Shown: piece after piece, positions 21,809 to 28,076 of the stretch | How the letters are laid out: each line of letters starts with the position of its first letter | Numbering within the stretch: position 1 is the stretch's first letter | Assembly (NCBI GenBank): GCA_038400315.1 | Contig: CP151667.1 | Span: 1,871,174 to 1,935,173 of the forward strand | DNA length: 64,000 nt | Direction of reading: 5' to 3' | From: Isosphaeraceae bacterium EP7 | Lineage (GTDB): Bacteria > Planctomycetota > Planctomycetia > Isosphaerales > Isosphaeraceae | Translations under genes and position numbers: made by a program | Notes under the pieces: generated by a model | Databases searched by the model: none | Told to the model about the DNA's origin: nothing | What the model saw: the letters and a program-made list of their open reading frames with translations, nothing else

Positions 21809-23308
21809 TCAGGGGACGGAGACGGGGCCGAGGTCGGTGCCGAGCTTGACCGGCCCCTTCTTGTCGGCGACCGATCGGCCGAATTCGTCGGGCGACCTGA
21901 CGGGGGTGCCGTCCACGGACGCGATGAGCTGCCCCTTCTTGAGGCCGGCCTGCTCGGCGGGTGTCCCGGCGACGACCTCGGTGATCACGACGAAGCCGCG
22001 GAGCATGGCCGCGTCGGGGTCGACGACCATCGGCTGGACGTTCCCCATCGTCGTGCTCATGTGGTCGATGCGCAGGCCACGCCAGGGTGCCGGTCGGTTG
22101 GTGGCGATGATCTCGCCGTCGACGGGGAACTTGGCCAGGACCAGGGTCTTCTCCAGGTCCTGTACGCCCCGGGTGAACGGGTCGACGCGGCGGACCTTGA
22201 TGGAGACCTCGCGGCCGACGGGAAGGGCGTTGACCGCCAGGATCAGGCTGTCGGTGTCGTGGACGGGCCGTTCGCCGACCGAGATGATCGTGTCTCCGCG
22301 GACGATCCCGGCGCGGTCGGCCGGAGACCCCGGTCGGGTCTGCTCGACGCGGGCCAGCCCGTCGACCGGTCGTCCGAATTCAGGGCTGCGGCCGGTGTCC
22401 AGGGTCAGGCCGAGGAAGCCGTACTCGACCTCCTTGCCTTGCTTCAGGGCCTCGATGGCACGCCGGGCCAGGGCGTCGATCGGGATGGCGTAGCCGGCCC
22501 GGCCGTCATAGCCCTCGACGTTCGCGCCGGCGGTGGTCAACCCGACCAGCTCCCCTTTGCGATTGATGACCGCGCCGCCGCTCATGCCCAGGTTGAGCTT
22601 GGCGTCGAGCTGGAGCAGCGAGGCGAGATGCCTGAGCTGGCGGGGGTTCTGGCGCTGGTTGAAGTCATAGGCGGGGGGCTCCAGCTTCCTGGCCAGGTTC
22701 GACAGGATGCCCAAGGAGGCCGACGCCGACCCGTCGCGCGCGGCGTTATAAGGGTTGCCAAGGGCGATCAGGAACGACCCTTTCCGAAGGGTCGCGGCGT
22801 CGCCCAGGGCGATGGGCGTCAGCTTGGGCGGGGGCGAGCCGGGGATCTCGCGGGGCGCGATCACGGCCAGGTCGCTTCGAGGATCGGCGGCGATGATCTC
22901 GGCGGCGAACTGGGGCTGGCTGCGGGTCCGGACGGTCAGGCGTGCGGCGCCTTGAACCACGTGGTAGGCCGTCAGGATCTCACCCTTGGTGCCGATGACC
23001 ACGCCAGAACCATAGTCGAAGGAGAGTTCCTCCTCGGCGTCGACGGGGGCGAACTGGCCGAGCTGGGGGTTGAAACCGTTGATGACGCCAGGCGCCACCC
23101 CGGGCTGCGGCCGACCGCGGACGGCCACGGTTTCCTGGCCCTTCTCGGCCTTCTCCCTCGCGATGGCCACGACCGAGGGCTCGGCCCGCGCGATGGCGTC
23201 GGCCACCGCGTTCTCGAGCGCCTCGACCGGGTCGACGGACTTGGGCTCGTCGGCCTTCGCCGCGGCGGCGAGGAACAGGGCTAAGGCGAGCGCGGCGTAC
23301 TGACGCAT
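21809..23308 (-). CDS. DegP/HtrA-like secreted serine protease with PDZ domains
   Basis: A 499-residue protein with a signal peptide (MRQYAALALALFLAAAAKA). The trypsin-like domain has His116 in LTAYHVV, Asp146 in RSDLAVI and Ser243 in LGMSGGAV (the usual GNSGGP motif, changed around the Ser). Two PDZ-like regions follow: one around EYGFLGLTLDTG through GIVRGDTIISVG, and one near the C-terminus with GTPAEQAGLKKGQLIASVDG. HtrA family proteins degrade or refold damaged envelope proteins. The frame is open to 23419, but the ATG at 23308 starts the signal peptide. The altered residues before the nucleophile might affect the oxyanion hole. Confidence 0.88.
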   Translation of the reverse strand: MRQYAALALALFLAAAAKADEPKSVDPVEALENAVADAIARAEPSVVAIAREKAEKGQETVAVRGRPQPGVAPGVINGFNPQLGQFAPVDAEEELSFDYGSGVVIGTKGEILTAYHVVQGAARLTVRTRSQPQFAAEIIAADPRSDLAVIAPREIPGSPPPKLTPIALGDAATLRKGSFLIALGNPYNAARDGSASASLGILSNLARKLEPPAYDFNQRQNPRQLRHLASLLQLDAKLNLGMSGGAVINRKGELVGLTTAGANVEGYDGRAGYAIPIDALARRAIEALKQGKEVEYGFLGLTLDTGRSPEFGRPVDGLARVEQTRPGSPADRAGIVRGDTIISVGERPVHDTDSLILAVNALPVGREVSIKVRRVDPFTRGVQDLEKTLVLAKFPVDGEIIATNRPAPWRGLRIDHMSTTMGNVQPMVVDPDAAMLRGFVVITEVVAGTPAEQAGLKKGQLIASVDGTPVRSPDEFGRSVADKKGPVKLGTDLGPVSVP

Positions 23309-23896
23309 CGTCGAGAACCCCCGGCGCCAGGCGCCTTCGTTCGAGCCCAATCCGAGCAACCAAAGGGCGGGGGATCGGCCGACCCTCGGCACTCGATCGC
23401 CCGCCAGACCATCTTTCACGTTCCCAGCCTCTCCGACAAGGCCGGCCGTTCATGCCCCGTCTCCGCAACCGCCAGGACGAGGCGCCGGGTTCGTTTCGTT
23501 TTCCCAGAATCGGCCACGCAGTCAGGTCATTCTTGAGCCGGAAGGAGAACTCAACACCTCAAAATGGTCGATCATAAGTCATTATAAATCATTAAGTTGC
23601 GACATAAAATCTTGGACAGAAAATGACGGCTTCCAAAGTCACTTCCGATTCTTTGACAATCGTCATAGGCCTGACCCAAGCCTGTGGCCTATCGCGGACG
23701 TCGGCCCTCGCCTCCAGGCCAAGGCTACTCGGTCGGCCGATTTGGTCGCAAACGTGAGGACCAAGCACGGGGTTCCACCAGGAGGGGGGCAAATGGTTGC
23801 GAAAAAAAAGCGGGAACCGCAGGCCGTCCATCGGACACTCTCTCTGAACAGCACCGCCTCTCTGAACAGCGCCGTGATGGCGAGGAGAACCGGCCC
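23309..23896. other. Divergent intergenic region with an AT-rich core
   Basis: Nearly 590 bases between the divergent protease and sigma-factor genes. The 23540-23670 stretch is strongly AT-rich for this genome and contains ATAAGTCATTATAAATCATTA, with a repeated TCATTA; this is a plausible control region. I could not assign -35/-10 boxes. Reading upstream of the chosen sigma-gene start stays open but is low-complexity and domain-free. Confidence 0.45.
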
Positions 23897-25528
23897 TTGA
23901 CGACCCGGTATGACGGCATGATCGTGCGGCAGCTCGCCTCGCTCTTTGAGGTAGGGAGTTTCCGAGAACTCTCCGACGGCCAGCTCCTGGAGCAATCTCT
24001 GGGAGACGAGCGCGAGGCCGCCGAATTGGCGTTTGGTGCCCTGGTGAAGCGGCATGGGCCGATGGTCCTGCGCGTCTGTTGCAGAGTTCTGGCCGACCCG
24101 CATGACGCCCAGGATGCCTTCCAGGCCACGTTCCTCGTGCTGGCTCGCCGAGGTCGTTCCATCAGGCGGCGTGAGTCGTTGGCAAGCTGGCTCCACGAGG
24201 TCGCGTTGCGAGTCGCCTGTTGCACCCGCAGGGCGAACGCCGTTCGTCAGGCCCACGAGCGGCTCAGGGCCGGGCAGCTGGTCGAGGCGGTGGTTGCCCC
24301 GACCGACGACTCGGCGGAACACGCGACGATGCTGCACGAGGAACTCGCCAGGCTGCCCGAACGGTATCGGGCGGCGGTCGTCCTCTGCGCGTTGGAAGGG
24401 CAGACCTGCGAGGAAGCGGCGAGGCGGCTGGGCTGTCCGGTCGGGACGATCAAAAGTCGGCTGGCGCGGGCCCGCGAGCGACTTCGCCTCCGGCTGGAAC
24501 GCCGAGGGCTGGGGACGGTAGGGTTCGCGGCCTTGCTCACCGCCGAGTCGGCCAGAGCGGCCGTCCCGGCGAGGTTGACTGCTCAGCTCGTGGCCAAAGC
24601 CGGCCGGGCGGGGTCCTCAGGTGTCATTCAAACAGCGGTTGCAGAACTCACACAGGAGGTGTTGACGCTCATGCTGCGAGACCAATTGCGTTACGTTGCG
24701 ATCGGCATGCTGTCCCTGATCGTCGGGGTTTCCGGCGCCGTCGCACTGGCCCGATCCCCCCAGTCTCCGGCCGTGGCCGCGGCGTCAGCCCCCGGGCAGG
24801 CCGAGGCACCCGTCGCAGACTATGTCGTCGAGCCCCCCGACCTGCTCGTGGTCGAGGTGCTCGATGCCCTGCCTGGACGGCCGATCAAGGGAGACCACCT
24901 GGTTCGACCGGATGGGACGTTGTCCCTGGGTTATTACGGAGATGTCTTCGTGGCAGGCCTGACGCTGCGACAGGTCAAGGTCGCGGTCATCGCCAAGCTT
25001 CGCGAAAACCTCGGCGATGACCAGCTCGGACTGATCGAGCCAGACGGGCGTCACCCCAGTCAGAACAGGGTCGTGTCGCCCGAAAAATCGACGCGAGTTC
25101 TCGTGGACGTATCGGCCTACAACAGCAAGTTCTATTACGTCCAGGGGGACGTCGGGTCCCCTGGCAGGCTGCCCGTCACGGGAAATGAGCGGGTACTCGA
25201 CGCGATCAACTTCGCGGGCGGGCTGAACCCGTCCGAGGCTAAACGGAATATCCGGCTGGTCCGCCCGGCCTCTCCGGGCATCTGCTGCGAGCAGGTCTTC
25301 AATGTCGACCTCGACGCCATCGTCAAGGCCGGCGATCAGTCCACCAATCACCGGCTCGGTCCCGGAGACCGCCTGGTGGTCTACCGCGATCCGGTGTCCG
25401 AGACGACAGTAAAGGGTCCGAGCCTCGAGGCACGCTTCGAGTCGATCGAACGCCGGCTGGATGCGATCGAGCGTCGCCTAGAACGGGCTGTCGACCTCCT
25501 GGAGGCCGCACAACCTCCCCGGCCCTAG
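23897..25528 (+). CDS. ECF sigma factor fused to a membrane segment and polysaccharide-export/SLBB domains
   Basis: A 543-residue protein. Sigma region 2 is at about 43-111 (VKRHGPMVLRVCCRVLADP, DAFQATFLVLARRG, SLASWLHEVALRVA) and region 4 at about 143-201 (ARLPERYRAAVVLCALEGQ, EEAARRLGCPVGTIKSRLARAR). A hydrophobic segment follows at 265-284 (YVAIGMLSLIVGVSGAVALA). Beyond it, 307-379 resembles the Poly_export domain of Wza-type proteins (PDLLVVEVLDALPGRPIKG, VRPDGTLSLGYYGDVFVAGLT), 411-497 an SLBB-like beta-grasp (YYVQGDVGSPGRLP, NFAGGLNPSE, LGPGDRLVVY), and 509-536 a short coiled coil. The TTG at 23897 has GAGGAG at 23882-23887, 9 bases away; the ATG at 23918 lacks such a site. This layout would put the export-like part outside the membrane with the sigma domain inside. 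The promoters it recognises are unknown. Confidence 0.85.
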   Translation: MTTRYDGMIVRQLASLFEVGSFRELSDGQLLEQSLGDEREAAELAFGALVKRHGPMVLRVCCRVLADPHDAQDAFQATFLVLARRGRSIRRRESLASWLHEVALRVACCTRRANAVRQAHERLRAGQLVEAVVAPTDDSAEHATMLHEELARLPERYRAAVVLCALEGQTCEEAARRLGCPVGTIKSRLARARERLRLRLERRGLGTVGFAALLTAESARAAVPARLTAQLVAKAGRAGSSGVIQTAVAELTQEVLTLMLRDQLRYVAIGMLSLIVGVSGAVALARSPQSPAVAAASAPGQAEAPVADYVVEPPDLLVVEVLDALPGRPIKGDHLVRPDGTLSLGYYGDVFVAGLTLRQVKVAVIAKLRENLGDDQLGLIEPDGRHPSQNRVVSPEKSTRVLVDVSAYNSKFYYVQGDVGSPGRLPVTGNERVLDAINFAGGLNPSEAKRNIRLVRPASPGICCEQVFNVDLDAIVKAGDQSTNHRLGPGDRLVVYRDPVSETTVKGPSLEARFESIERRLDAIERRLERAVDLLEAAQPPRP

Positions 25529-26036: not shown

Positions 26037-28076
26037 ATGGGTCACGGGTCGAGCGAGCAACTACTCAGGCAGGTGGGCCGGCTGTTCGCGGAGGGGACCA
26101 GCGCGGGGATCAGCTCGACCGAACTCCTGGAACGCTATGCGTCGAGGCGTGACGAGGCGGCGTTCGAAGGGCTGGTGGCGCGGCACGGTCCGATGGTTCT
26201 GGGCGTCTGCCGGCGAATGCTGCGCGACCCTCGGGATGTCGACGACGCCTTCCAGGCGACATTCCTCATCCTGGCGAGGAAAGCGTCGAGCCTGCGCGAC
26301 CCGGGAGGGCTCGCCCCCTGGCTGCACGGGGTGAGCACCAAGGTGGCCGCCCGAGCCCGCTCGCTGGCGATTCGCCGGGGAATCATCGAGCCCAGCGCCG
26401 GTGAGTTGATGACCGACCTCCCGTCGTCGGATCGCTCGTCGCCGGGCGCCGAGTGGGCCGAGCTGCGGCGGGTGCTGGACGAGGAGATCGCTCGCCTGCC
26501 GGAGAACGATCGGACACCGCTGATCCTCTGCGGCCTGGAGGGGCTCAGCCGAGACGAGGCGGCCCGCCGCCTGGGTTGGCCTCCGGGAACGGTCGCCGGC
26601 CGCCTGGCCCGTGCCCGCGAGAAGCTCCGAGGCCGCCTCACTCGCCGCGGCATGACCCTGCCAGCATCCGCGGGACTTGCCCTGGTCCCGGAGTCCTTGA
26701 TCGCCGCCGTGCCGCCCGCCTTGCAGGCCCGCGCCGTCCTGAACCTCGGCGCCGACCTGGGCACCGTCACCCTCTCCTCCACAGCGAGAACCCTGGCCAA
26801 ACGAGCACTCTCCGCCATGGCACTCACCGAGTCGATCAAGCTAAGCGCCACATTCCTCGTCGCGGCCGGAGTCCTGGCGGCCGGCGTGGGAGCCGTCGCT
26901 CAGGGCGTCGGCCCTGCCGGGAGGAATCCCGAAGTCGAGCCAGCTCGACCCATCGCACGCCAGGTTCAAGAACCCGGCCCGGCGATTCCGACCGCGGCGC
27001 AAGACGCCACTCAAACGAAAGTCGCGGCCGAAGGGGCTGGAGGAGCGAACCCGGAAGCGGTGAGCAAGTCGGAGGGTGTCGCGAGTTTGCTCGCTCTCGC
27101 GGAGGCGAGGGTCGAGGACCTGTCGACGATGAAGGCGAAGATTACCTCGCTCATCGTCAAAGACCTGACCGATCTGGAGGTTGATGAGGCCCATCTGGAA
27201 TACTTCCGTAAGAGGATGGTCGAACACAGGAAAGCGGGCGAGGAGGCCGAAAGCAAGGCTCAGAAAGAGCAGTATCGTCGAGAGCAAATCGTCAAAAACT
27301 CGACCTATGGGCCGACGATTGACGGAATCGTGATCGGCCGCCGGGTCTCGGCCGATGAGGCCAAAACGCCCGAAGGCCGGACAGAAATCGAACGCCAGAT
27401 GACGATCCTGAACGCCCGCGAGGACGAGGCCAGACACGAAGCAACCGAGAGCGAACGAAATGAAGCGAAAGCGCGGCTGACCTATCAGAACTTTGCCGAG
27501 GAAGTGTCCGGCAAACGCCGGGATTTACGGGATAGGGAACGAGAACTCGATCGCCTGGAGCATGAGCACGCCAGGGCCGTCCGGGAGGCACTTCGATTCA
27601 AGGTGTCAGCCGAACCCAGGAGAATCGGCGTGGGGGACACGCTCGAAATCGCGGTCCTCCAAGCCCTACCAGGAAGACCGATCAATGGAGAGAGGATCGT
27701 CCGGGAGGATGGGACGATCTCGCTCGGATATTACGGGGAGGTCCAGGTCGCCGGCTTGACGAGGATTGAGGCCAAGGTCAAGGTCGTCACACATCTGACG
27801 AAATCGCTCAGCGATGAACTCCTAGGCTTGGTCGAGGAGGATGGAGGGAGCGGCAAGTTCATCAGGATCCCGCCCGGAAACTCCTCCACCGTTTTCCTGG
27901 ATGATTCGAAGGCGTTCACTGATGAGATGGCCAGGGATCGGGACGATGAAACGCTTCGAGGCGAGATCGAACGGTTGCGGCGGATCGTGAATGAGTCGGG
28001 GAATCTGCCGGCGACGAGGAGGACGAACGCGCGAGTGTTGCCCCAGCCCGCCGAGAACGAGACGGCGAAACCTTGA
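26037..28076 (+). CDS. ECF sigma factor fused to a membrane segment, coiled coil and polysaccharide-export-like domain
   Basis: A 679-residue paralogue-like neighbour of the previous gene. Sigma region 2 is at about 43-110 (LVARHGPMVLGVCRRML, DAFQATFLILARK, LAPWLHGVSTKVAA), region 4 at about 145-203 (EEIARLPENDRTPLILCGLEGLS, DEAARRLGWPPGTVAGRLARAREKLRGRL). A hydrophobic segment is at 268-290. A charged, heptad-rich coiled-coil region spans about 345-520. Residues 521-600 resemble Poly_export (IGVGDTLEIAVLQALPGRPINGERIV, LGYYGEVQVAGLT) and share LPGRPI, LGYYG and VAGLT with the first gene. The SLBB half present in the first gene is missing, replaced by a short charged tail. GGGAGG lies 8 bases before the ATG. 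Confidence 0.85.
   Translation: MGHGSSEQLLRQVGRLFAEGTSAGISSTELLERYASRRDEAAFEGLVARHGPMVLGVCRRMLRDPRDVDDAFQATFLILARKASSLRDPGGLAPWLHGVSTKVAARARSLAIRRGIIEPSAGELMTDLPSSDRSSPGAEWAELRRVLDEEIARLPENDRTPLILCGLEGLSRDEAARRLGWPPGTVAGRLARAREKLRGRLTRRGMTLPASAGLALVPESLIAAVPPALQARAVLNLGADLGTVTLSSTARTLAKRALSAMALTESIKLSATFLVAAGVLAAGVGAVAQGVGPAGRNPEVEPARPIARQVQEPGPAIPTAAQDATQTKVAAEGAGGANPEAVSKSEGVASLLALAEARVEDLSTMKAKITSLIVKDLTDLEVDEAHLEYFRKRMVEHRKAGEEAESKAQKEQYRREQIVKNSTYGPTIDGIVIGRRVSADEAKTPEGRTEIERQMTILNAREDEARHEATESERNEAKARLTYQNFAEEVSGKRRDLRDRERELDRLEHEHARAVREALRFKVSAEPRRIGVGDTLEIAVLQALPGRPINGERIVREDGTISLGYYGEVQVAGLTRIEAKVKVVTHLTKSLSDELLGLVEEDGGSGKFIRIPPGNSSTVFLDDSKAFTDEMARDRDDETLRGEIERLRRIVNESGNLPATRRTNARVLPQPAENETAKP

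Follow-up and report, generated by a model that had tools for sequence, protein, structure and literature searches.

The window, by which we mean the whole stretch of 64,000 nucleotides that was analysed, comes from an Isosphaeraceae genome of 7.2 Mb; the named relatives in this family are Singulisphaera, Paludisphaera, Aquisphaera and Tautonia. One of its genes joins an ECF sigma factor, a membrane helix and a Wza-like OPX module in a single frame without internal stops; a second fusion follows in tandem, and a protease gene lies divergently upstream (Table 1). The TTG start of the first fusion (product P0001) is 55 bases downstream of a candidate promoter, which an upstream extension of the frame to 23684 would overlap.

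Table 1. Features of the fusion locus, in window coordinates.
Feature	Position	Strand	Size or evidence
Sigma-OPX fusion gene (P0001)	23897..25528	+	543 residues
Candidate ECF promoter: -35 GGAACC (23813-23818), 17-base spacer, -10 CACTCT (23836-23841)	23813..23841	+	spacing and place as in the orthologues' GGATAG-N17-CACTAT
Ribosome-binding sequence GAGGAG, serving the TTG start at 23897	23882..23887	+	read in sequence
Sigma region 2, residues 49-108; conserved Cys61 at 24077	24041..24220	+	Pfam PF04542
Sigma region 4, residues 145-196; conserved Cys164 at 24386; -35-contact position Lys186 at 24452	24329..24484	+	Pfam PF08281
Possible internal start: AGGAGG 24654-24659, ATG 24671-24673 (Met259), directly before the membrane helix	24654..24673	+	anti-SD duplex -13.6 kcal/mol
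Membrane helix, residues 267-285	24695..24751	+	hydropathy 2.29 over 19 residues; same place in homologues
Poly_export domain, residues 305-370	24809..25006	+	PF02563 1.4e-9 (above curated cut-off); Wza D1 fold
SLBB domain, residues 413-495	25133..25381	+	PF22461 (SLBB_2) 3.1e-9, PF10531 7.1e-8; Wza D2 fold
C-terminal heptad coiled coil, residues 510-538	25424..25510	+	helix in model
Second fusion, in tandem: ECF sigma followed by a membrane helix, a long charged stretch and Poly_export; no SLBB	26037..28076	+	PF04542 1.6e-9, PF08281 2.5e-13, PF02563 1e-9
Divergent neighbour: trypsin-like protease with two PDZ domains	21809..23419	-	PF13365 1.1e-26, PF17820 1.8e-21

Sigma regions 2 and 4 are intact, as the initial annotation had claimed: Sigma70_r2 (1.5e-9) and Sigma70_r4_2 (1.3e-16) both match above the Pfam curated cut-offs, and P0001 carries these regions without region 3, the composition of an ECF sigma factor. 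Profile searches of the C-terminal half, which had been proposed at the same time, returned Poly_export and the SLBB families above their cut-offs, with SLBB (PF10531) covering residues 413–457 and SLBB_2 (PF22461) residues 413–495, and the boundaries first given for the two domains (307–379 and 411–497) were right to within a few residues. In the AlphaFold2 model (mean pLDDT 82), residues 20–206 align with ECF sigma factors, and residues 300–499 superpose on Wza domains 1–2 (2w8h, 73–253) with a Z score of 17.1 and an rmsd of 1.8 Å over 167 residues. There is one strong hydrophobic segment, between sigma and Poly_export, and the open frame, Pfam and hydropathy agree on the single polypeptide with one helix that had been described. 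A frameshift that would yield two proteins, or two separate genes, is ruled out by the single open frame, which is conserved across genera. The domains and the helix also support a sigma domain inside and a Wza-like module outside; this topology is predicted, the positive-inside signal (2.75 vs 2.4 K/R per side) being too weak as proof. Finally, the protein had been thought to work without a separate anti-sigma factor, and none is encoded next to the fusion gene.

Nor is the fusion set in a polysaccharide cluster. That candidate was rejected, since the neighbours are enolase, FAA hydrolase, histidine kinase, Uma2 and similar genes, and there are no polysaccharide genes near the genome's core OPX gene either. 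Because neither gene lies among polysaccharide genes, the link of the fusion to polysaccharide export is an assumption from homology, and the control of sigma by exopolysaccharide or surface assembly outside, as the initial annotation had it, would be a hypothesis. The core OPX gene (L178, own genome C1:5417500-5429000) adjoins genes for a membrane pyrophosphatase and a VWA-domain protein. By its position, the divergent protease is a possible site-1 protease, and genes of the site-2-protease family (M50) are encoded in the same genome; as a conserved partner, the HtrA-like neighbour was rejected, as it adjoins the fusion in the window alone. In genus g12 (L036, L037, L149, L013), the gene that directly follows the fusion codes for a secreted, sigma-less OPX protein with the same coiled coil, which is a likely partner of the fusion.

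Poly_export is present in 45/45 Isosphaeraceae genomes. A search of their longer frames for the combined Sigma70 and Poly_export architecture, also proposed in the initial annotation, recovered 33 distinct fusions in 31 of the 45 genomes, 27 of which also carry SLBB. The order of the parts is constant across all 33, with one helix between sigma and OPX; an end-to-end alignment of 20 fusions has many invariant positions in either half, and a profile built from it gives full-length matches with E down to 3e-249. Full-length homologues with identical part order in many genomes rule out misassembly or chance joining. Outside the family, the sigma domain is absent from the best 18 OPX matches, and in a phylum sample of 392 genomes, strong full-length fusion matches were confined to Isosphaeraceae, with three candidates scored per genome, so that weaker fusions may escape. 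The fusion had been called unusual; this stands insofar as we found no earlier account of it in the literature, though the main ECF classifications may mention one, but within the family it is a common protein. Several related frames differ in size or arrangement. The charged stretch of the second fusion in the window is helical, and its sigma part clusters with other paralogues and not with the first fusion. A 1450-codon sigma fusion in another genome (L040, G040 C1:7527000-7539000) has ~700 residues separating sigma from Poly_export, one very long Poly_export frame (L071, G033 C72) reaches 1464 codons, and four Poly_export/SLBB genes stand in a row at L069 (G008 C8:1-12000).

The likely source of the exterior is found within the family. 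A core OPX protein with the same Poly_export–SLBB unit occurs in nearly all Isosphaeraceae genomes. The 13 proteins whose N-terminal ends were read have a signal sequence, nearly all with a clear lipobox (…GC|QTV), and the C terminus is a long hydrophobic helix, FLDRLAAPFxTVLNSxLQYSF (in the Singulisphaera protein, a hydrophobic tail helix is predicted at 241–278). In the fusion, the sigma domain and the internal membrane helix stand in place of the lipobox and signal peptide, and a charged heptad helix replaces the outer-membrane-type hydrophobic C-terminal helix; this coiled coil is found in main-group fusions and not in core OPX tails. With the lipobox and the hydrophobic tail lost and a coiled coil gained, the exterior is probably not a pore. 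When fused modules were compared with the core OPX protein of their own genome, identity exceeded the row/column-mean expectation in 23 of 23 genomes, with a mean residual of +4.8 points of identity (null sd 0.5), and two controls, in which the fused or the core OPX was compared with a distant OPX paralogue, gave no own-genome excess. These comparisons indicate that the fusion exterior derives from the Isosphaeraceae core OPX lipoprotein.

The own-genome resemblance in all 23 genomes would follow from repeated capture of the core OPX, or from concerted evolution or gene conversion. We infer from either process some contact or shared ligand with the core OPX; gene conversion could also produce the similarity without functional contact. 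Well-supported branches force at least three gains or exchanges in the tree of the sigma part and at least four in that of the OPX part, so a single ancient fusion is not supported. Could a joining that was made or remade several times within one family point to a built-in sensor of the cell surface? We think that it does suggest one, and the kinship with the core OPX, together with the loss of the pore and anchor parts, would favour a role in sensing over one in transport.

The fusion is a variant of the transmembrane ECFs, which are already known, with an OPX exterior. In Pseudomonas putida, IutY (ECF243) links an ECF sigma domain through a single membrane helix to a periplasmic domain and is released by Prc and RseP (PMC5411451). 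The fusion, in its predicted topology, likewise unites these three parts in one polypeptide, with no separate anti-sigma factor. However, IutY carries a FecR-like anti-sigma domain in the periplasm and is encoded beside an outer-membrane receptor gene, whereas the fusion carries OPX/SLBB there and has no receptor gene adjacent. SCO4117 of Streptomyces coelicolor (ECF52) also places sigma, a membrane helix and an extracellular, carbohydrate-related domain in one protein (PMC8999054), but in place of the OPX fold it carries a carbohydrate-binding domain and, in addition, a zinc-finger anti-sigma segment; a whole-protein Pfam scan found neither a FecR-like nor a zinc-finger anti-sigma domain in P0001. 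Compared with the OPX proteins, which include Wza and fall into classes 1–3 (PMC9603273), the fusion has the same Poly_export followed by one SLBB and the Wza D1–D2 fold (Z 17), but it lacks the lipobox, the signal peptide and the class 1 outer-membrane helix and adds a sigma factor and a coiled coil.

A further point of comparison is group ECF57, planctomycete ECFs with WD40 extensions and one conserved cysteine each in sigma2 and sigma4 (PMC8999054). Compared by description, the fusion resembles this group in its planctomycete origin, its long C-terminal extension and its sigma2 and sigma4 cysteines, and it has WD40 sisters in its own genome; it differs in that its exterior is an OPX module and not WD40-like repeats. 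The whole-protein Pfam scan gave no WD40 match in P0001, WD40 repeats being a mark of certain ECF57 members only. The own genome encodes about 20 ECFs with a common sigma domain, an alanine-rich linker and usually a helix at the same place. Their exteriors differ: WD40 (matches in three paralogues, one weak), PD40, CarboxypepD_reg with a thioredoxin-like domain, DUF1559, HlyD_3 and OEP (TolC). The ECF with the OEP exterior recurs at full or nearly full length in two further Isosphaeraceae genomes. Since the same chassis bears varied exteriors, the OPX fusion would be an example of a planctomycete ECF chassis that has exchanged its exterior, which is consistent with group ECF57. The transmembrane ECFs with OEP/TolC and HlyD_3 exteriors lie at C1:6347100-6351000 (L219) and C1:269800-274600 (L210) of the own genome, respectively, and L227 (C1:3284500-3288200) joins an ECF sigma to DUF1559/SBP_bac_10, a domain otherwise typical of planctomycete pilin-like proteins.

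The chassis also allows another reading, in which the exterior is no more than a tether of sigma to the envelope or a scaffold, without any signal being received by the OPX fold, and activity depends on amount, autoregulation and the cytoplasmic cysteines. Many paralogues do keep the sigma-helix chassis with unrelated exteriors, and Cys61 and Cys164 are each invariant in 33/33 fusions, as in ECF57 (PMC8999054); the equivalent cysteines occur in 22/27 and 21/27, respectively, of the other ECFs of the set. On the other hand, repeated core-OPX capture or concerted evolution is unexpected for an inert anchor, and the exterior retains invariant residues. We regard an exterior that is only a tether as somewhat unlikely.

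The internal ATG at 24671 could additionally yield a sigma-less exterior product, and the gene may thus make two products: the full fusion and a membrane-anchored OPX protein working in the envelope. An AGGAGG properly spaced before Met259, with the duplex energy given in Table 1, speaks for this, and in one genus separate genes encode OPX partners that share the coiled coil but lack sigma. However, the site is strong in the window but moderate or weak in most relatives, its score is the best of several ATGs, and the codons of the internal start also encode conserved residues. An internal start as a family-wide feature was rejected on account of this uneven strength, and we consider a second product of the gene unlikely.

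Does the sigma domain of such a putative sensor still read a promoter? In six Paludisphaera-group genomes, TGGATAG-N15-GGCACTAT lies directly upstream of the fusion gene amid flanks that are otherwise unalignable, and the exact motif is single-copy in each of these genomes, always before the fusion. With one mismatch allowed, 10 of the 14 sites in 45 genomes, from three genera, precede the fusion, and two more precede another transmembrane ECF. The looser pattern GGA-N20-CA[CT]T recurs at that place in 21 of 22 fusions of the main group, while the strict GGA-N20-CACT is found before 0 of 20 other ECF genes, and shuffling would be expected to give it in under one of 33. In the own genome, GGGAACC-N15-GACACT has one exact site, the candidate promoter itself. 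The fusion's promoter motif recurs at L250 and L251, upstream of a transmembrane ECF with a carboxypeptidase-regulatory-like exterior.

Furthermore, the -35 letters change together with the protein. All genes with a GGATAG -35 (17/17) encode GT[VI]RSR in the sigma4 recognition helix, and in the four genes with other letters (GGAACC in the window and its sister, one GGATCG and one weak GGAATA), K or Q replaces the first R; as identical lineages are not independent, about three events are counted. The position of Lys186 aligns with the R of GTVRSR in region 4 of E. coli sigmaE, a residue that we take to contact the -35 element. On the simplest reading of this covariation of the -35 letters with the sigma4 contact residue, the promoter of the fusion gene is recognised by the fused sigma, which is probably both active and autoregulatory. 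A search for the regulon by promoter pattern singled out the own promoter alone, other sites in the own genome being at control level; counts of the pattern elsewhere fell below the reversed control, which may reflect the rarity of TAG/CTA. The core OPX was rejected as a target, as no promoter site was found upstream of core OPX genes.

The promoter might instead be read by another regulator, the fused sigma not being autoregulatory, since in two genomes the close variant TGGATAA-N15-GGCACTAT precedes another transmembrane ECF, whose exterior is CarboxypepD_reg-like. However, the -35 letters covary with the contact residue of the fused sigma itself, and that CarboxypepD_reg-like ECF likewise has RSR at the contact position, which makes foreign control rather improbable. 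Least of all do we expect a working export component, an inner-membrane-anchored part of an OPX ring whose sigma half reports or rides along: the Poly_export and SLBB folds are well preserved, but the lipobox, the membrane-type tail and nearby export genes are all missing, and the sigma looks active and has its own promoter.

We therefore return to the reading of the fusion as a one-protein transmembrane regulator, to which we assign a probability of about one half. The ECF sigma domain would be tethered to the cytoplasmic membrane on its inner side, and the exterior would be a Wza D1–D2-like OPX module copied from the own core OPX, minus its lipid anchor and tail helix and plus a coiled coil. 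The most likely contact of this exterior is the core OPX ring or whatever passes through it, on which the exterior would dock or with which it would co-assemble. A changed state of the OPX assembly would then free or reorient sigma, through a cut close to the membrane like that of IutY or through a change of conformation. Active sigma would transcribe its own gene from GGAACC-N17-CACTCT, giving positive feedback, and may also act on further targets. The model builds on what can be read from the genes themselves, namely the architecture, its conservation, the origin of the exterior, the loss of the pore parts, the specific promoter and the sigma4 covariation. We infer the topology, the docking partner, the release step, the wider regulon and the signal sensed. 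Precedents for a tethered ECF are IutY, SCO4117 and the ECFs that were recovered from membrane fractions of the related planctomycete Tuwongella (PMC8567305); together with the M50 genes of the own genome, they lead us to propose a tethered, releasable and self-amplifying sigma.

More tentatively, the exterior may be a decoy subunit of the OPX ring that is built into, or in contact with, the export assembly of the outer membrane and reports its occupancy or damage directly to RNA polymerase, in a self-amplifying device that was made several times. If so, and with the TolC-like and HlyD-like exteriors of its sisters in mind, the fusion would belong to a set of monitors of envelope machines that share one chassis.

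If the regulator works as proposed, an outer-membrane assembly would signal to RNA polymerase by way of one protein alone, and neither an anti-sigma factor nor a receptor or kinase would be involved. The promoter and the covarying sigma4 residue provide a handle for measuring its activity. A chassis with exchangeable exteriors would also offer a reason why these planctomycetes have so many ECFs, with each exterior naming the part of the envelope that is watched.
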